Source of the DNA: Oscillibacter sp. ER4
Lineage (GTDB): Bacteria; Bacillota; Clostridia; Oscillospirales; Oscillospiraceae
NCBI RefSeq assembly: GCF_000765235.1
Contig: NZ_JPJG01000091.1
Coordinates: forward strand, 1 to 51,489
DNA length: 51,489 nucleotides
Reading direction: 5' to 3'
This document shows positions 3,177 to 51,489 of the stretch, one piece after another. How positions within the stretch are numbered: position 1 is the stretch's first letter; each line of letters starts with the position of its first letter. Below the pieces are notes generated by a model, which was given only the letters and a program-made list of their open reading frames with translations, made no database searches and was not told the origin of the DNA. Both the position numbers and the translations under genes were made by a program.

Positions 3177-4115
3177 TTATTTTCTCAGATTCAGCAGCAT
3201 CGCGACGTGGCGATAGAGGCTTCTCTTGACCGCGGGGGTCATGCAGGCCTCCTTGATGGGCATGGCGAGCTTTCTGAGCTCGTCCTCGGCCTGCGCGATG
3301 ACCTCGTCATCCGTGGCGTCGGAGTCGATCTTCGCCGCCGTCTCGGCCATCACGACCGGATGGGGCGCGAGCGCGCCCGCAGCCAGACGCGCGGGGCGAT
3401 TGCCGCCGCAGCGGAGCGCAAAGTTGATGATCGGGAAGTCGATCGTCGTGCGCATCGCGTACTTATAAAAGCCGCTGCGCTCGCCCTCTTCCGCCGCGGG
3501 GACGAAAAAGCGCGTGACGAGGATGGGCAAATGCTCGTGGCAGGCAAGGCCGTTGGCCACGCTGTGGCGCTCGATGAGGGACTTGAGGTCGGTGCGGTGC
3601 GTCTCGCCGTCTTCGATGTACTCGACCTCCGCCTCGTAAGCGATGAGCGCGGTGGCGACGTCGGAATAGTAGATCGCGCGGCAGACCGGCGAGTTCGGGA
3701 TCTGGTGGCAAATGCTGCCGCCGGTCTTGAAGCAGTACGGAAGGCCGCTGCGCCACAGGTGCGGCTGGTTGAAGTAAATGCAGCGGCGGTCCTGCATGAT
3801 GTTGCCGCCGACGGTGGCGATGTTTCTGATCTGCGGGGATGCCGTCAGCGACGCCGCCTGCGCGATGGCCGCGTAGCGGCTGTTCAAAAGCGCGCTCTCG
3901 GCAAGCTCGGTGAGCGTCATCGCCGCGCCGATGATGAGCTCGCCGTCCTTTTCCTCCAGGACGTGCAGCTCCGGAATTTTCTTCAGGAAGACGAAGTCCT
4001 TGTCGTCGCGCACCTCGTTTTTCAGCAGCGGCATGATGTCCGTGCCGCCGCCGATGTATGTTGGGTGCTCGGCGGAGACGACGTCGTGTAAGCTCTCTAA
4101 AACCTGTCCGCTCAT
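3177..4115 (-). CDS. molybdenum hydroxylase FAD subunit with extra Fe-S-type Cys cluster
   Basis: A 312-residue medium subunit of the xanthine dehydrogenase family, which passes electrons through FAD. FAD-binding motifs are YIGGGTD (20-26) and QIRNIATVGGN (about 95-105). Unlike ordinary FAD subunits it has an insertion with Cys112, Cys128, Cys136 and Cys145. Their spacing (16, 8, 9) equals that of the four cysteines I recall binding the additional [4Fe-4S] cluster of 4-hydroxybenzoyl-CoA reductase beta subunit (122/138/146/155 in Thauera). A low-potential reductive or aromatic-acyl role is therefore possible, but substrate is unknown. ATG 4115 was chosen over upstream in-frame starts: it has a GAGGGGG site and overlaps the stop of the Mo subunit (ATGA). 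No 2Fe-2S subunit lies on this strand; it may share the one at 8312-8785. Confidence 0.88.
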   Translation of the reverse strand: MSGQVLESLHDVVSAEHPTYIGGGTDIMPLLKNEVRDDKDFVFLKKIPELHVLEEKDGELIIGAAMTLTELAESALLNSRYAAIAQAASLTASPQIRNIATVGGNIMQDRRCIYFNQPHLWRSGLPYCFKTGGSICHQIPNSPVCRAIYYSDVATALIAYEAEVEYIEDGETHRTDLKSLIERHSVANGLACHEHLPILVTRFFVPAAEEGERSGFYKYAMRTTIDFPIINFALRCGGNRPARLAAGALAPHPVVMAETAAKIDSDATDDEVIAQAEDELRKLAMPIKEACMTPAVKRSLYRHVAMLLNLRK

Positions 4116-6032: not shown

Positions 6033-8312
6033 ATGAATTATCAATACATCGGTAAGAGCACACCCGTGAACAATTCCCGTGCCAAGGCCAGCGGCCTTCT
6101 GCGCTACGCAGGGGACATGAAGCTGCCGAACATGCTGCACATGAAGCTCGTGCTCAGCCCTGTCGCCCACGGGATCGTCAAAGCGATCGACTCCTCCGCC
6201 GCACTTGCGATGCCAGGCGTTGCTGCGGTATTGTCGTTTGAAAATACGGTGGACACTAAATACAATCGCGGTCGCGTTCGCATCAGCGAGGATGTCATGG
6301 ACCAGGAAACGCTCTTCAGCCGTCACGTCCGTTTTGTCGGCGACCGCGTGGCTGCCGTGCTGGCCGATTCGCCGGAGATCGCCGCAGCAGCAGCGGAAGC
6401 GATCCAACTCGAAATAGAGGAACTCCCCGCTGTCTTTACCGTGGAAGCCGCCAAGCGCGAAGGTGCGCCGCAGCTGCACGAGGACGGCAACACGGTCACA
6501 CTGCCCGAATGCGGCTTCGGCGGCAGATATGCCGATGTGCAGGGCGAAGAGTTCATCCACCGCTCACAGACGCAGCGTGTCTCGCATATCGCCATGGAAA
6601 CGCACTGCGCCGTGGCAGACTATAACCCCGGCACCGACCGCATGACCGTCTGGTCTCCCACACAGTCGACATTTGGCGTGCGCTCGTGTGTTGCAGCGCT
6701 GCTTGGAATGCCGATGAGCCATGTGCGCGCCATCAAAACGCCGATGGGCGGCTCGTTCGGCTGCAAGCAGGAGATAATCCTGGAACCGCTGGCCGCCGTC
6801 GGCGCAAAAATGACGGGACGCCCCGTCAAGCTTCAGCTCGACCGGCGCGAGACCATCCTCTGCACTGTGCTGCGCCATCCCATCAAAAGTGAAATTCGCG
6901 CCAAATTCGACAAAGGCCATATTCTCAAAGCGCTCGACCTGACCGCTGAGCTCGACGCGGGCGGTTATCAGGGTGTTTCGCCGGATTACATGGGATCCAT
7001 GTTCAAAAAGCTCTCCTGGGTCTACGGCGTGGAGGATGTAGCGTACCATGCGACCTCCACCTGTACGAACACGCCCATGTCCGGCAGCTACCGTGGTTGG
7101 GGCGGCCCCGAGACCGCGTTCATCATGGAAAACATGATGAACGCCGCCGCGCAGAAATTCCGCTGTGACCCGCTCGAGTTGCGGCTCAAAAATATCCTGC
7201 CGCCCGACGCAATCAGCAAGATTGGCAATTTCCCGCTCGGCGATGTCCGCCTTGAGGACGTGCTGCGCCTTGGCAGTGAACGTTTCCGCTGGTCCGAGCG
7301 CCGCGCCGCCGCGCAGGCGCAGGATCGAAGCAGCCGCTATCTCAAGGGCGTCGGCCTCGCCGTGTCCACCCATACCTCAGGCTACTATCCTCGCCGTCTT
7401 GACTGGTGCACCGTCACGGCCAAGTTTGAAGAGGACGGCTCGGCGAGCTTCAACTGCAACATCCACGACCATGGCTGCGGCACGGTTGCCGCGCTGAAGA
7501 ATATTGCCGCAGAAGAACTCTCCATCCCCCCTGACAGCATTGATTTCCCTGAGGGCGACACGGCATACAATGCGCTCGATAATGGCTGCTACACCAGCCG
7601 CACAATTTATGTCACCGGCCGTGCCGTGTTGGAAACGGCGCAGAAGCTCAAATCTCTGCTGCTGGAAAATGCCGCACGTCTCATGGTATGCAGTGCCGGA
7701 GACCTCGCCTGTCAAAACGGTGAGATCTTTGTCACCGCTGATCCCTCTCGCCGGAAAACCTACCGTGATGTTATCTGCTATGCCGCCGACCAGTGCGGCG
7801 GCAGCGGCGCAATTTTCGTTTCCCACACTTACCAGCCCTCGTCCAACCCCGGCCCTGCCGCTGCTCACTTTGCCGAGGTCGAGGTCGACACGCTCACTGG
7901 GCTCTGCCGCCTGACAACCTACACCGCCGCGCATGATGTAGGAAAGGCCATCAATCCCGAACTCTGCCGCGGGCAGGTCGGCAGCGCCTTGCAGCAGGGC
8001 ATGGGGCTTGTCTTTTGCGAGCATGTCAAAATCGACCCGAAGACCGGCCAGCCGCTCAACGCCACCCTGCAGCGCTATCACGTGGCACGCGCGTGCGACT
8101 TCCCGCACATTGAGACAGTGCTTGTCGAAAACGGCAGCCCCGAAGGGCCTTACGGCGCCAAGTCCATCGGCGAATCCTGCTTTGTGCCGGTCGCGCCGGC
8201 GCTACTTGCCGCCGTCAATGACGCACTGCAAACCGATCTGACCACCCTGCCGCTGACGCCGGAGAAGCTCATCCGCGCCGTGCAGGAAAAACGCAAGGAG
8301 GCGTCGCTGTGA
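6033..8312 (+). CDS. molybdopterin-binding catalytic subunit, xanthine dehydrogenase family
   Basis: A complete 759-residue large subunit of a molybdenum hydroxylase, which hydroxylates a heterocycle, aldehyde or aromatic substrate using water. The a/b-hammerhead domain occupies about residues 15-130 (KASGLLRYAGDM; FVGDRVAAVLAD). Cofactor loops follow: SPTQSTFGVR near 208-217, PMGGSFGCKQ, SGSYRGWGGPE, and GAKSIGESCFVPVAP near the C-terminus with the catalytic Glu. ATG 6033 was chosen because GGGAGAA (6020-6026) precedes it and homology begins there; the upstream ATG 5976 lacks a site. The stop overlaps the 2Fe-2S gene (TGATG). With the next two genes it makes the usual Mo/2Fe-2S/FAD heterotrimer. 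It is only distantly similar to the truncated paralogue, so the substrates probably differ. Confidence 0.92.
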   Translation: MNYQYIGKSTPVNNSRAKASGLLRYAGDMKLPNMLHMKLVLSPVAHGIVKAIDSSAALAMPGVAAVLSFENTVDTKYNRGRVRISEDVMDQETLFSRHVRFVGDRVAAVLADSPEIAAAAAEAIQLEIEELPAVFTVEAAKREGAPQLHEDGNTVTLPECGFGGRYADVQGEEFIHRSQTQRVSHIAMETHCAVADYNPGTDRMTVWSPTQSTFGVRSCVAALLGMPMSHVRAIKTPMGGSFGCKQEIILEPLAAVGAKMTGRPVKLQLDRRETILCTVLRHPIKSEIRAKFDKGHILKALDLTAELDAGGYQGVSPDYMGSMFKKLSWVYGVEDVAYHATSTCTNTPMSGSYRGWGGPETAFIMENMMNAAAQKFRCDPLELRLKNILPPDAISKIGNFPLGDVRLEDVLRLGSERFRWSERRAAAQAQDRSSRYLKGVGLAVSTHTSGYYPRRLDWCTVTAKFEEDGSASFNCNIHDHGCGTVAALKNIAAEELSIPPDSIDFPEGDTAYNALDNGCYTSRTIYVTGRAVLETAQKLKSLLLENAARLMVCSAGDLACQNGEIFVTADPSRRKTYRDVICYAADQCGGSGAIFVSHTYQPSSNPGPAAAHFAEVEVDTLTGLCRLTTYTAAHDVGKAINPELCRGQVGSALQQGMGLVFCEHVKIDPKTGQPLNATLQRYHVARACDFPHIETVLVENGSPEGPYGAKSIGESCFVPVAPALLAAVNDALQTDLTTLPLTPEKLIRAVQEKRKEASL

Positions 8313-16303: not shown

Positions 16304-16363
16304 AATGTTGTCCTCCTAAGATCTATCTTAATTTTTTTGTTAACCACTTTATATGTTCATTTT

Positions 16364-16560
16364 GCGTCCGCAGACGCGAAACAAATCCAAATCGTTTTTT
16401 CTGACGACAGAAGGTGAATTGCCGCAAAGCGGCAAGAGAAGCCGCCCTGGGGCGTGCGCGTCAGAAAAAACACATCTCAGCCCTGAAACGTGCGAGCGCA
16501 GCGAGTGCGCTGCACAGGGCTGCAAGCCCTTTCAAAAATGTGTGCCACACATTTTTGAGG
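16364..16560 (+). repeat. family-C intergenic palindromic element, copy 1
   Basis: Modular inverted-repeat element in the grpE-dnaK gap, described on the + strand. Parts in order: a small hairpin GCGTC/GACGC (16364-16377); an A-rich linker; an outer 13-bp stem GTTTTTTCTGACG / CGTCAGAAAAAAC (16394-16406 and 16459-16471) enclosing a CCGC-AAA-GCGG hairpin; stem 2 CAGCCCTG / CAGGGCTG (16478-16485, 16515-16522); stem 3 TCAAAAATGTGTG / CACACATTTTTGA (16532-16558). Bases 16390-16473 match 18619-18702 at 83 of 84 positions. It is transcribed antisense within the heat-shock mRNA. Confidence 0.85.
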
Positions 16561-16565
16561 AACTT

Positions 16566-18227: not shown

Positions 18228-18249
18228 ACACCGCGCTCCTTTCGTAGCT

Positions 18250-18276
18250 TTAGCACTCCTTTCCATCGAGTGCTAA
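18250..18276 (-). promoter_or_regulatory. CIRCE operator
   Basis: TTAGCACTC-N9-GAGTGCTAA, a perfect match to the HrcA-binding consensus. It starts 4 nt beyond the -10 box of the hrcA promoter, covering the expected transcription start, which explains repression of the heat-shock operon. Confidence 0.98.
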
Positions 18277-18280
18277 ACGC

Positions 18281-18309
18281 AGTGTACCACCGACATTTCC
18301 CATTGTCAA
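18281..18309 (-). promoter_or_regulatory. sigma-A promoter of the hrcA operon
   Basis: On the minus strand: perfect TTGACA (18304-18309), 17-nt spacer, TACACT (18281-18286; 4/6 to TATAAT). The CIRCE operator lies immediately downstream. Confidence 0.92.
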
Positions 18310-18590
18310 TAGGAGGCAGTGTAAACAGTTTGTGAACTACGCAAAAGTCAGGCCAAGGCCTGCCTTTTGAAGCGTTTTCACTCCGCTCTGTGCCTCGCCT
18401 ACGGCTCGACACTCGCTGCGCGAGAAGAGTTGATCGCCGCGCGCAGGTCGCGGCGATCAACAATCCTAATTCTTCCGCGCCCGCGGGCGCGGAATTCTGC
18501 GAAACCTTTGTAAAAAAAGCATCGCAGATTTTTACCCGCGAGGGGTACGCGGCATCCGTAAAGCAGCAAAGCTGCTAACGGCTGCCCAGG
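18310..18590. other. gene-free chain of short palindromes upstream of hrcA
   Basis: No gene is seen. The stretch is a succession of hairpins: AGGCC/GGCCT (18350-18361), a 13-bp stem GTTGATCGCCGCG / CGCGGCGATCAAC (about 18430-18462), TTCCGCGCC / GGCGCGGAA (about 18474-18494) and AGCAGC/GCTGCT (18562-18576). The phrase GCATCGCAGATTTT at 18519-18532 recurs twice before family-C copy 3 (43213, 43247), so part of this region probably belongs to the same element family. Confidence 0.55.
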
Positions 18591-18803
18591 CCACCGCGCA
18601 CAGTGGTAAATAGATTCTAATCGTTTTTTCTGACGACAGAAGGTGAATTGCCGCAAAGCGGCAAGAGAAGCCGCCCTAGGGCGTGCGCGTCAGAAAAAAC
18701 ACCGCTCAGCCCGCAAGTGTGGAATTTGCCCGCCAAGGCGGGCAAATTATGCGCGCAGCGGGCTGCACTCCCCTCGCGAAAAAGTGACACCGTCACTTTT
18801 TCG
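18591..18803 (+). repeat. family-C intergenic palindromic element, copy 2
   Basis: Same architecture as the copy at 16364-16560: hairpin CCAC/GTGG (18591-18606), linker ending AATCG, outer 13-bp stem GTTTTTTCTGACG / CGTCAGAAAAAAC (18623-18635, 18688-18700), stem 2 CAGCCCGC / GCGGGCTG (18707-18714, 18758-18765) and stem 3 CGAAAAAGTGAC / GTCACTTTTTCG (18777-18803). Stems 2 and 3 differ in sequence from copy 1 yet remain self-complementary. It lies between the rnf terminator and the hrcA promoter. Confidence 0.87.
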
Positions 18804-18810
18804 AAATTAT

Positions 18811-18844
18811 AAAAAAGAGGAACGCTTTCGCGTTCCTCTTTTTT
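18811..18844 (-). terminator. terminator of the rnf operon
   Basis: A perfect 15-bp stem (AAAAAAGAGGAACGC / GCGTTCCTCTTTTTT, loop TTTC) with A/T runs on both sides, 10 nt after the rnfB stop. It would work in either direction. Confidence 0.92.
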
Positions 18845-18853
18845 TAAGAACCT

Positions 18854-19780
18854 TTATTCGGCCTTGGGCGCTTCGGCGGCTTTCGCGGCTTCAGCAGCCT
18901 TAGCTTCGGCGGCTGCCTTGGCGGCAGCGGCCTTGCGCTCGGCGGCAGCCTTCTGCGCGGCCTTGAACTTCTCCTTCTCCTCGGGGGTCGGGATGGGCTC
19001 GATGGCGTTGCGCGGGCAGGCCTTGGCGCACATGGTGCAGTTTCTGCACTTGGTGTAGTCGATGACGGCCACGTTGTTGACGACGTGGATGGCGTCGAAC
19101 TTACAGGTGCGCTCGCACATACCGCAGGCGATGCAGGAGTTGGCGCACACCTTCGTAACGGCGGGGCCCTTCTCCTTGTTCGAGCAGTTGACGAAGACCT
19201 TCTGCTTGTAGGGCACCTCGACGATCAGCTTGCGCGGGCAGGCCTCGCGGCAGGCGCCGCAGTTGGTGCACTTCTCCTTGTCGACCTCGGCGACGCCCTG
19301 CTCATTGATATGGATGGCGTCGAACTGGCAGGCGGCAACGCAGGTGCCAAAGCCCATGCAGCCAAAGGAGCATGCGGTCGGGCCGCCGGCGACCTTCGTC
19401 GCGGCGACGCAGTCGTGAAGACCGACATACTCGAAATTCTTCACAGAAGCCTCGCCGCCGTTGCACAGCACGTGCGCGACCTGCTTTTCGCCGCTGGGGG
19501 CTTCCATGCCCATGATCTCAGCAATCTTGGCAGCGCCTTCTGCGCCAGCGGGCGCGCAGGCGGTGACGGGAGCCTTACCGGCAAGAATTGCCTCGGCGCA
19601 GCCCGCGCAGCCGGGGTAGCCGCAGCCGCCGCAGTTTGCGCCGGCGAGGCAGGCCTGAATCTTGGGCAGGCGCTCATCGACCTTGACCTCAAAGGCCTTG
19701 GCCGCAACGGACAGGATCAGGCCGAACACGACGGCGATCACGCCCAGCACGAGGACAGCGTAAATAACGTTTGTAATCAT
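18854..19780 (-). CDS. rnfB: Rnf complex subunit RnfB (iron-sulfur)
   Basis: A 308-residue membrane-anchored ferredoxin-like subunit, probably the entry point for electrons from ferredoxin. An N-terminal hydrophobic helix (5-27) is followed by the Fe-S domain CLAGANCGGCGYPGCAGC (44-61) and then several Cys groups: CSFGCMGFGTCVAAC, CTNCGACREACPR, CANSCIACGMCERTC and CRNCTMCAKACPR. The C-terminus (about 270-308) is a low-complexity Ala/Lys/Glu tail, also seen on RnfC here. Last gene of rnfCDGEAB, 15 nt after rnfA, in the order known from Clostridia and Acetobacterium. Confidence 0.96.
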   Translation of the reverse strand: MITNVIYAVLVLGVIAVVFGLILSVAAKAFEVKVDERLPKIQACLAGANCGGCGYPGCAGCAEAILAGKAPVTACAPAGAEGAAKIAEIMGMEAPSGEKQVAHVLCNGGEASVKNFEYVGLHDCVAATKVAGGPTACSFGCMGFGTCVAACQFDAIHINEQGVAEVDKEKCTNCGACREACPRKLIVEVPYKQKVFVNCSNKEKGPAVTKVCANSCIACGMCERTCKFDAIHVVNNVAVIDYTKCRNCTMCAKACPRNAIEPIPTPEEKEKFKAAQKAAAERKAAAAKAAAEAKAAEAAKAAEAPKAE

Positions 19781-19795
19781 AATTTCGTCCCCTCC

Positions 19796-20386
19796 TTACA
19801 TGGGCCACACCTGCAGGCCGGAGAAGCCCATGAATGCAAGGGCGATCAGGCCTGCGGTGATCAGCGCGATGGGGAAGCCTTCAAATGCCTTGGGATAGTC
19901 GGCAAATTCCAGGCGCTCGCGCACCGTGGAGAACAGGTAGATCGCCAGCAGGAAGCCAAGGCCGCCGGTGATGCCGTACACCACGGATTCGATGAAGTTG
20001 TAGTCGTTCTGCACGTTGAGCAGCACCACGCCGAGAACGGCGCAGTTGGTGGTGATCAGCGGCAGGTACACGCCGAGGGCCGTGTAGAGCGTCGGCATGG
20101 ACTTTTTGAGGAACATCTCGATAAACTGCACGAGGCTCGCCACCACGAGAATGAAGGCGACGGTCTGCATGTAGTCAAGGCCGAGCTTGACGAGGATGAT
20201 GTTCACGCCGTAGCAGAACGCCGAGGCAAGGCCCATGACGAAAGTAACGGCAAGGCCCATACCGATGGCAGTGTCGCTCTTTTTCGACACGCCGAGGAAC
20301 GGGCAGATACCCAAGAACTGCGAGAAGATGAAGTTATTCGTCAGGATCGCGCCGAGGGAAATAGCAAGTAACTTAGTCACACTCAT
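19796..20386 (-). CDS. rnfA: Rnf complex membrane subunit RnfA
   Basis: A 196-residue integral membrane protein of about six helices, homologous to NqrE. Marks are NNFIFSQFLGICPFLG (18-33), where a conserved Cys in RnfA/NqrE proteins helps bind an intramembrane Fe-S cluster, and LPLITTNCAVLGV (about 108-120), its pseudo-symmetric counterpart in RnfE. It forms the membrane core of the ion pump with RnfD and RnfE. It follows rnfE after 2 nt and precedes rnfB by 15 nt. Confidence 0.96.
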   Translation of the reverse strand: MSVTKLLAISLGAILTNNFIFSQFLGICPFLGVSKKSDTAIGMGLAVTFVMGLASAFCYGVNIILVKLGLDYMQTVAFILVVASLVQFIEMFLKKSMPTLYTALGVYLPLITTNCAVLGVVLLNVQNDYNFIESVVYGITGGLGFLLAIYLFSTVRERLEFADYPKAFEGFPIALITAGLIALAFMGFSGLQVWPM

Positions 20387-30802: not shown

Positions 30803-31437
30803 ATTCCGCGCATCGCGCGGAGAGAAATGCCGCCTGCGGGCGGCAGAACCACACCCCCCATTTTCTTTCCCGAGAAAGAAAACGGGCGGTGTGACCGTCC
30901 AAAAGAAAGGCATTTGATTGGCAGCCCCAAGCTCGAACAACCTTTATGCCTCCGGAATGCAACTGCCTGCGTGCGGCGGAGCCGCGTTAGCATTGCAAGA
31001 CGATTTGCCTCTGCTTCTACTACCCGCTGCCGCTCTGCTGATCTTGCGCAAGTGCAGCCTAATCGCCGTCTACCGATAATACGATATCGCGGCGAGCGTC
31101 AGCAATGCCGCTTTGGCAGGCAAACACAAGATTGCACCAATCCGAAGTAGACGGAGATTGCTAAAGGGTAACGAATCGCAGGCAAAGCGGCAGCGAAGAT
31201 AGAAGCACACCAAGTCGTTTAGATTCATCACTTGGCAGGCACCCGATTCCGCAGGCTGAGCACTTCTTCAAGCTACAAACTCACAATGTCGGGGGTCGAG
31301 GGGGACTCCCCCCGTCCTTCTCTGGGGGATACAAAGGGGGTATTCTCTTCGAGAAGAGAATACCCCCTTTGACCCGCGCTCCCCACGGCAGTGGGGACCA
31401 AAACGCCGCCCCTTTGGGGCATAGAAAGGAATCTATC
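30803..31437 (+). repeat. gene-free region with family-D structured element, copy 1
   Basis: No gene is seen. The start is a run of hairpins (CCGCG/CGCGG; GCCGCC/GGCGGC; TTTTCTTTC/GAAAGAAAA near 30860-30882). From about 30905 to 31370 the sequence aligns with the reverse complement of 51036-51489 in the same order: AAAGGC(A/G)TTT, a ~54-nt block at 30994-31047 with about 49 identities, CCGTCTACCG, GGCGAGCG and GCAATGCCGCT or close variants, then GGGGTCGAGGGG and a terminal hairpin. That hairpin (31333-31370) is a perfect 17-bp stem. A second hairpin (GCCCC/GGGGC, about 31403-31420) sits just before dtd. Reading frames are not conserved between the copies, so it is noncoding. Confidence 0.83.
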
Positions 31438-43191: not shown

Positions 43192-43212
43192 ATCTCTCAA
43201 ATCACGCCAAAC

Positions 43213-43498
43213 GCATCGCAGATTTTGCCGCTCGCAAATATTAAAAGCATCGCAGATTTTCGCACCGCGCACGGCGCGAAATAAATTTGAATCGTAAATT
43301 CCGACGTCACCGTCGTGGCATTACGATTCCCGCGCCCTTTCGGGCGCGCCAATCGTGCCACTTCCTCGAAACCGGCTCGCTTTATCCGCCACTGGCGGCG
43401 CTTCGCCAATTTCCATGTGCGTCGGAATTTACTCTTTGCGCGGAGCGCGTGTCGCAGCCGCCCTACAGGCGGCAAGGCACGAAGCGCAGCGAATCTCT
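43213..43498 (+). repeat. family-C intergenic palindromic element, copy 3
   Basis: Begins with GCATCGCAGATTTT twice (43213, 43247; also at 18519), then a CGC-rich hairpin, the linker GAAATAAATTTGAATCG and an outer 13-bp stem GTAAATTCCGACG / CGTCGGAATTTAC (43294-43306, 43420-43432) placed exactly as the GTTTTTTCTGACG stem of copies 1 and 2. Inside are GCGCCC/GGGCGC and CCGCC/GGCGG hairpins; after it comes GCCGCC/GGCGGC (about 43457-43473). Only the architecture and the CTGACG/CCGACG edge of the stem are shared with the other copies. This region fills the 350-nt gap; no gene seen. Confidence 0.75.
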
Positions 43499-43500
43499 CT

Positions 43501-43543
43501 AAAATGAGAGGGATGAGAGTTTTACTCTCATCCCTCTCATTTT
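43501..43543. terminator. bidirectional terminator, EamA / SpoIIQ-like
   Basis: A perfect 19-bp stem (AAAATGAGAGGGATGAGAG and its complement, loop TTTTA) between convergent genes; its right arm overlaps the stop codon region of the leftward gene. It occupies the position of stem 3 in family-C copies 1 and 2. Confidence 0.88.
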
Positions 43544-50947: not shown

Positions 50948-51489
50948 AACTCCTTTAGGAATTAGTTAAATAACTTTGCTGGTATGACCCGCTGCGTGGG
51001 GGCGTAAGTCCTTTGCGCCGCGCAAAGAAGCGAGTAAAGGGGGCCATTCTCTCGCGTGAGAGAATGGCCCCCTTTGACCCCCAAGAGAACGCGAGGGGCT
51101 CTGCCCCTCGACCCCGCACATTGGCAGTCTCGATCTTGAAGAGCTGCACGCGCTGCGCAATGTAAGTGCGGTGTACATGGCTTCGCCATGAATCCCTACG
51201 TTTCGTGACAACTCTCAACCGCGCCTTACTATCGTGAGGCGCGAGTGACGTTTGCTCGGCGGCAGACTGCGTGCGAAATAGCGGCAATGCTGCGCTCGCC
51301 GCATTGTAGGGACTGGCGGTAGACGGGAATTAAGCTGTACTCCTACAAGATGAGCAGAGCGGCAGCGGATGATAGAAGCAGAGGCAAATCGTCTAGCAAC
51401 TCCAAACGCGGCAACGCCGCGCTATGGGCAGTGCAATCGGCAAGCATTGCAGCTCTTCGAGCTGCTCGCTTGCAATGGGAAACGCCTTT
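50948..51489 (-). repeat. gene-free region with family-D structured element, copy 2 (cut by window end)
   Basis: No gene is seen in the last 542 nt. From 51489 down to 51036 the minus strand follows the same sequence order as the copy at 30905-31370: AAAGGCGTTT, the ~54-nt conserved block (51341-51394), CCGTCTACCG, GGCGAGCG, CTCTTCAAG, GGGGTCGAGGGG, CTTGGGGGT, then the terminal hairpin. That hairpin (51036-51075) is a perfect 18-bp stem with GCGT/ACGC loop; compared with copy 1 the middle of the stem is changed on both arms. It points toward the prs stop, so it could also terminate transcription. Confidence 0.83.

Follow-up and report, generated by a model that had tools for sequence, protein, structure and literature searches.

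A dispersed family of palindrome-rich, probably mobile cassettes in intergenic DNA of Oscillibacter sp. ER4

The gap between relA and dtd of Oscillibacter sp. ER4 (30803-31424) and the gap downstream of prs (51036-51489, minus strand) are occupied by members of a dispersed family of hairpin cassettes. Copies are scattered over the genome with a fixed order of modules, are absent from the relA-dtd junction of congeners, have been replaced, inverted, gained or lost between strains and occur with or without cargo genes. Several of the breakpoints between strains lie at or beside hairpins. We put at about two in three the probability that these are non-autonomous, modular, palindrome-rich mobile cassettes which reside in intergenic regions, nearly always beside the 3' end of a gene, and exchange at their hairpins. 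The window, i.e. the whole stretch of 51,489 nucleotides that was analysed, is an entire contig (C5) of a draft genome of 2.73 Mb (G000; 130 contigs, 98% complete), and the species was represented by this one draft together with contigs from an uncertain number of strains.

Size, anatomy and constraint of the family

The initial annotation had described a structured non-coding element present twice. Both copies are real: the relA gap and the reverse complement of the prs gap could be aligned over nearly their full length, with identity at 322 of 490 columns (66%) and a local E value of 2e-43, and all of the blocks named in that description were recovered in the alignment. Twice is an undercount, however, as the genome holds at least 36 full-length copies. 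The whole-genome search that had been recommended revealed a wealth of additional copies. With the relA and prs copies as queries at least 92 and at least 85 matching pieces were obtained, both lower bounds, since scoring covered 40 of 81 and 40 of 100 candidates, respectively, and an nhmmer model applied to fetched stretches of G000 delimited 36 full-length cassettes plus further partial ones. The core motif (up to two mismatches) matched 44 times and a terminal-hairpin pattern 89 times per strand, with no match of the reversed control pattern in either case. Several copies were situated at contig ends of the draft. The left end of the prs copy is missing, as the contig, and with it the window, stops there, and cassettes may explain why several draft contigs terminate in a copy.

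Alignment of the 36 copies and the folded consensus gave the order of modules: outer small hairpins, terminal hairpin (about 40 nt), arm, conserved motif, central hairpin, arm, terminal hairpin and again outer small hairpins, within a unit of approximately 500-620 bp. As a whole the cassette is an imperfect inverted repeat: many copies give model matches on either strand. Comparison with the gaps of congeners showed that the entire 30803-31424 (plus strand; element and outer hairpins) is extra in ER4. The interval first proposed, 30905-31370, does lie on the element but is too narrow, as it omits the left terminal hairpin, the outer hairpins upstream of it and, on the right, the outer small hairpin TCCCCAC..GTGGGGA (31380-31397; sequence, hairpin list). 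Outermost on the left is a small hairpin (30805-30821), seen in the sequence and the hairpin list, which may belong to the 3' end of relA. It is followed by the left outer small hairpin TGCCGCC..GGCGGCA (30828-30845; hairpin list), around whose position other copies have small hairpins of varied sequence, by the left terminal hairpin CACACCCCCC..GGTGTG (30850-30893) and by the left arm (30894-31000, plus strand), which alignment and a self-match on both strands relate to the inverted right arm. The conserved motif TRCTYCTNNNNNCCGCTGCCGCTCTG, located by motif search, occupies 31012-31037 on the plus strand, and the central hairpin GCGGCGAGCGTCAGCAATGCCGC, recognised in the sequence, 31089-31111; the consensus of the latter is GCGGCGAGCG..AGCAATGCCGC. 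Alignments identified an inverted second version of the motif in the right arm (31181-31222, minus strand). This version is confined to type 1, which comprises five of the 36 copies including the relA copy; the prs copy is among the 31 copies of type 2. The right arm further contains a small inner hairpin (31300-31313) and is bordered by the right terminal hairpin CAAAGGGGGTATTC..GAATACCCCCTTTG (31332-31371). In the prs copy, delimited by alignment and genome search, the terminal hairpin lies at 51036-51075 (genome search, terminal-hairpin pattern), the central hairpin at 51281-51302 (sequence) and the motif at 51355-51380 on the minus strand (motif search). Three other gaps of the window (16304-16565, 18228-18853 and 43192-43541) hold at least three perfect palindromes each and have no extended match to the relA or prs copies.

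No reading frame is open in all cassette copies, and the relA copy folds far below its dinucleotide shuffles (z -8.2 as RNA and -8.1 as DNA), in keeping with the non-coding, structured character first proposed. The suggestion that the conserved islands reflect more than decay also held up. In the 31 type-2 cores (366 columns; the five type-1 copies were excluded from the rate test) 138 columns were invariant, mean pairwise identity was 80% (range 71-90%), and rates following a gamma model (shape 0.40) fitted better than a single uniform rate, the difference being about 1029 BIC units (10294.2 vs 11323.0). Bins of 20 columns over the central hairpin and the CGCGCCTCACGATAGTAAGGCGCG hairpin reached up to 97% and 98%, respectively. 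No two of these cores were nearly identical, the maximum being 90%, so transposition was not recent or has been masked by mosaicism.

The arms of local hairpins paired better with their own partners than with partners from other copies, with z values from -3.7 to -10.7. The left terminal hairpin gave -10.7 (32 copies, as it is missing in four of 36 rows), the right terminal hairpin, which also shows compensatory changes, -10.1 (36 copies) and the small inner hairpin -5.2 (31 copies); in three other tests one to five rows were missing. This suggests that pairing has been maintained and is not proof of an RNA, and linkage within mosaic copies could feed the signal. For the long-range arms pairing within copies was no better than shuffled in three tests (z +0.64, +0.64 and -0.44). 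RNAalifold predicted 54 pairs, 13 of them changed on both sides, mostly within local hairpins. A single large RNA fold, hinted at by the folded consensus and in part by RNAalifold, was rejected because its long-range arms are unmatched within copies. Since local arms are co-matched whereas long-range arms are not, the cassette is better described as a chain of hairpins than as one large fold. The discrete RNA in two copies that had been envisaged at the outset gave way to a mobile-like, dispersed family with a patchy distribution in the genus. A discrete RNA is opposed not only by the failure to maintain the long-range pairing that one fold would require but also by the solo-hairpin, cargo-bearing, inverted and replaced versions found among strains.

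The view that the element belongs to no known class stood: in a comparison with Rfam 15, at gathering as well as relaxed thresholds, its matches remained far below the gathering scores, the sole match of the window over that score being a tRNA. A weak match to the Rfam family Clostridiales-2 at 31283-31361 (21.2 of 58.6 bits, E 0.02) was discarded; it was not recovered at E 0.5 across eight sources, one of which (L001) carries the same copy, in a search whose larger size may have masked the signal. The terminal hairpins gave no terminator-like call, and there were no promoter calls either.

Distribution among genomes and turnover between strains

Matches to relA and dtd were present in all 17 other genomes of the genus. 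Their junction could be compared in 16 of these congeners, G017 having the two genes on separate contigs. The gap measured 16-103 nt in 13 of them and 373 nt in G006, and relA and dtd are separated by a phosphoglucose isomerase gene in G005 and G012; the element model had no match at E 1 at this junction in any of the 16. With the prs copy as query, three of 60 genomes, ER4 included, were matched. The core motif was found in four of the 18 genus genomes (44 matches in G000, seven each in G005 and G017, one in G013), and the single match in G013, with two mismatches, looks like a chance occurrence. A search for the motif across the taxonomic family matched 21 of 300 genomes, 19 of them with a single match of one or two mismatches; the rest were G000 and G005. 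In a scan of named genomes the exact motif occurred in 27 stretches, 15 of which were also matched by the element model: Oscillibacter MAG ABMPRH_166_1 (seven), MSJ-31 (four), RGIG9025 (one) and a Clostridia MAG (three). The other 12, e.g. from Streptomyces and Burkholderia, had no element-model match. The exact motif was not found in viral contigs, nor the relA copy in plasmids.

The elements of ABMPRH_166_1 have the style of the terminal hairpins and the motif in common with those of ER4 and are divergent beyond. On one contig of this MAG (L166) a small SRP RNA gene, 3754-3854, is found about 170 bp away from that part of an element which the model covers. The elements of G017 are shorter (about 380 bp), with the same architecture and hardly any variation in the block that surrounds the motif. 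In both G005 and G017 the arms and the central part differ in sequence from those of G000, so that architecture and the common motif are what unites the family across species.

A second source of copies was filed as phage. The relA copy matched 12 and the prs copy 11 records titled Bacteriophage sp. The 12 records fetched (L196-L207, i.e. MT835700, MT836034, MT837348, MT835769, MT836974, MT838774, MT836488, MT835783, MT836668, MT836528, MT837820 and MT837744) are INPHARED entries labelled 'UNVERIFIED: Bacteriophage sp.', whose source is in every case given as human faeces from Mexico; they may represent one strain or several. The longest, L196 (MT835700), is collinear with the window over 20197-41081 and 18826-20078 at 97.5% identity, which identifies it as part of another strain's chromosome. 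Flanks matched fetched G000 stretches in ten of the 12 records, and L203 also matched G000 contigs (11 of 12, the exception being L200). The whole set appears, on the same kind of comparison, to consist of chromosomal contigs of the species of ER4. A phage origin of the element was rejected on these grounds, and records filed as phage can prove chromosomal.

In the aligned pieces of L196 the sole inserted run of at least 15 bases fell within the element (57 bp in total). The six other gaps of at least 60 nt covered by L196 were free of indels, while the element gap had gained 57 bp; its substitutions (1.9%) were like those of genes. About 118 bp of the window (20079-20196), within an ORF, are missing from L196, where the alignment is split with a 30-bp overlap, so strain change is not confined to the elements.

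Eleven orthologous sites, with flanks approximately 94-99% identical, were compared between the strains, in a comparison that excluded L200, L203 and the additional elements of L197. Four sites were largely collinear (relA, C50, C52_17583 and C52_13536). At four others (C102, C83, C2 and C26) the second strain had a different copy, and at C83 and C2 this copy matched that of G000 solely when inverted (78-85% identity). The remaining three (C54, C30 and C92) were partly exchanged. The C30 and C92 sites return to orthology immediately ahead of the central hairpin. The exchange at C26 spans from gene border to gene border, and its breakpoints are not at hairpins. In the record covering the C30 site (L206, about 6577-6714) almost nothing separates the terminal and central hairpins of the strain, the left arm having been lost. 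A further site, C83:5671-5686, is a solo terminal hairpin in G000; the corresponding stretch of the strain, about 1007 bp long, comprises hairpin, arm, cargo, arm and hairpin. No duplication was visible at this solo-hairpin site, and the empty relA-dtd gaps are short and differ in sequence.

A 57-bp hairpin module sits inside the conserved motif of the strain's relA copy, and among the matches listed it occupies the same place in seven G000 and five strain copies. It was present in one strain and not in the other at relA, C54, C52_13536, C26 and C2; at C26 and C2 the entire copy differs as well. Its pattern occurs at 16 places in G000 and at none in 17 congeners. Because seven of these 16 places, including 18550-18579 of the window, coincide with no listed element piece, the module appears to be an independent small repeat dispersed over the genome. 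A stand-alone relative of it (GTTAGCAGCTTTGCTGCTTTACGGATGCCG) lies at 18532-18590 of the window, with similar ones at C26, C101 and C103.

Some cassettes carry two small divergent genes, one for a DNA-binding protein and one for a small protein. The DNA-binding proteins matched HTH_26 (44-56 bits), an Arc-like family (22.8) or YlcI/YnfO (44.5). The cargo of G005 additionally gave HTH_3 (63.2) and Arc (22.8), and the protein of C46 had no Pfam match and a weak Arc-like PHROG. The second protein (49-94 residues) is family-less: no weighty Pfam, NCBIfam or PHROG family was found, and one such protein had no match when searched against plasmids. In G000 or the strain, cargo loci were C52 (also L199), C46, L197, L198 and L207, besides C47, of which one edge was fetched. 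In all five fully read distinct loci (six records) the genes lay exactly between an inverted pair of central hairpins; cargo-less copies have a single central hairpin. Copies in G005 contain analogous gene pairs, and in the one checked (L100) the central hairpin of G000 is missing. The cargo proteins that were scanned included no recognisable transposase or recombinase. At C2 a protein homologous to the small cargo protein (63-67% identity) is encoded beside, not inside, the element (L201 3902-4039, L071 2013-2150) and is perhaps a source of the cargo genes.

Probable mobile cassettes and alternative explanations

Intergenic stretches are usually regarded as quiet. Here, in strains about 2.5% apart, intergenic DNA at the same site was swapped, inverted and loaded with small genes, with several joints beside hairpins. 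The likeliest explanation lies in the hairpins themselves: extruded as single-stranded or cruciform DNA, they could provide sites for crossover or template switching. Such events would exchange entire cassettes or halves of them, as well as cargo and the 57-bp module, among dispersed copies and strains, incoming DNA carrying versions from one strain to another. Deletion between the two central hairpins might give rise to cargo-less copies, and deletion between the two terminal ones to solo hairpins, and the founding insertions would be the work of a putative enzyme acting in trans. Effects on neighbouring transcripts, such as 3'-end protection or termination, are likely to be side effects. Several observations argue against mobile cassettes. 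Conserved core islands are atypical of dead mobile DNA and allow a host function, seven of the 11 shared sites retain some or most of the ancestral copy, the C26 exchange took place without hairpin breakpoints, and type-2 cores are at most 90% identical. A further point is that neither a mobilising enzyme, among the scanned cargo proteins or by the searches for PF01797 in G000 and TIGR02249 in the genus, nor a target-site duplication came to light.

The conserved islands, and the hairpins maintained within copies, might instead belong to a structured RNA or DNA signal which serves the host at gene 3' ends (a bidirectional transcript end, an insulator or a site for a nucleoid protein) and is selected at each site. 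The gene context is consistent with such a signal. By a home-made coding model the neighbours were convergent in 14, tandem in 14 and divergent in two of 30 copies, six of the 36 having been dropped for a single scorable neighbour, and at least one gene 3' end adjoined 28 of the 30. The convergent setting was more frequent than in other window gaps of at least 40 nt (14/30 vs 4/24, Fisher p 0.024), a background taken from the gaps of one window; depletion of the divergent setting was not significant (p 0.39). We nevertheless consider a host signal unlikely, since the 16 congeners have no element at relA-dtd, most of the genus lacks the motif, the sequence at a site is replaced between strains, and neither terminator-like calls at the terminal hairpins nor promoter calls were obtained.

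The precise position of the cargo pairs between inverted central hairpins raises another question, namely whether dedicated sites and a specific recombinase swap small gene pairs, as in an integron but without the integron integrase. Differing cargo in one frame, the solo-hairpin state and the breakpoints beside hairpins would all agree with this. However, no dedicated recombinase was seen, the integron integrase model TIGR02249 was over cut-off in none of 18 genus genomes, and replication slippage between repeated palindromes would yield the same solo hairpins, which makes such a system quite improbable. Rather doubtful, too, is the wider proposal that the hairpins are the recombination sites of a new intergenic system, by which cargo of an HTH or ribbon-helix-helix protein plus a small protein is captured, inverted, swapped and lost. 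It would involve two nested hairpin sites, cargo-less cassettes as docking sites and a putative recombinase as the driving force. The turnover of these elements between strains offers a natural system for studying palindrome-driven recombination in gut bacteria.

Relation to known systems

A survey of the open-access literature at the level of abstracts found no description of this cassette family. The nearest described systems are the BOX elements of pneumococci, MITEs and mobile insertion cassettes (MICs), and REPs, and the cassettes probably work like these. BOX elements of Streptococcus pneumoniae are, according to PMC3049150, modular, stem-loop forming, 67-637 bp long and thought to be parasitic; there are many copies within one species and few relatives, and some large copies encode ORFs. 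The cassettes are likewise modular intergenic repeats with stem-loops in one species and a few relatives. The likeness is one of architecture, and the modules here are hairpin, arm, motif, central hairpin, arm and hairpin. In the cassettes, moreover, cargo takes the form of a distinct pair of genes flanked by central hairpins, and replacement between strains, inversion and a solo hairpin are seen.

Passenger genes are present in MICs and absent from MITEs. Both have inverted-repeat ends and no transposase of their own, as outlined in PMC3129680. Similarly, the cassette matches itself when inverted, and no transposase was recognised in the scanned cargo proteins. Unlike MICs and MITEs, it ends in long palindromic hairpins that vary in sequence, and the conserved part is the interior. 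No related insertion sequence or target duplication came to light at the loci examined.

As described in PMC3733652, REPs are palindromes that lie downstream of coding regions, in gaps whose flanking genes are tandem or convergent. The cassettes resemble REPs and BIMEs in being palindromic, intergenic and downstream of coding regions, but have about 500-620 bp as opposed to units of 20-40 bp. Counted by eye in the alignment, CGTC stood beside the left hairpin in six of 36 rows. The Y1 transposase PF01797 had no match in G000, which is 98% complete, and was detected in five of 14 control genomes. On size, on the GTAG/CGTC tag and on PF01797 the cassettes thus differ from a REP/RAYT system, and membership was rejected. 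Decayed remnants of such a system or of an ordinary insertion sequence might account for inverted-repeat ends, dispersed copies and a 3'-end bias like that stated for REPs in PMC3733652, but are highly improbable given a conserved interior rather than conserved ends, the missing Y1 transposase, the lack of a conserved tag and a length far above 20-40 bp.

Integron gene cassettes consist of small gene cargo bounded by folded palindromic attC sites, with one site per cassette. Membership in this class was rejected, as no integron integrase was over the cut-off in the 18 genus genomes. The likeness lies in small gene cargo between folded palindromic sites. In contrast to integron cassettes, those of ER4 are dispersed, not arrayed, and their sites are inverted around the cargo.
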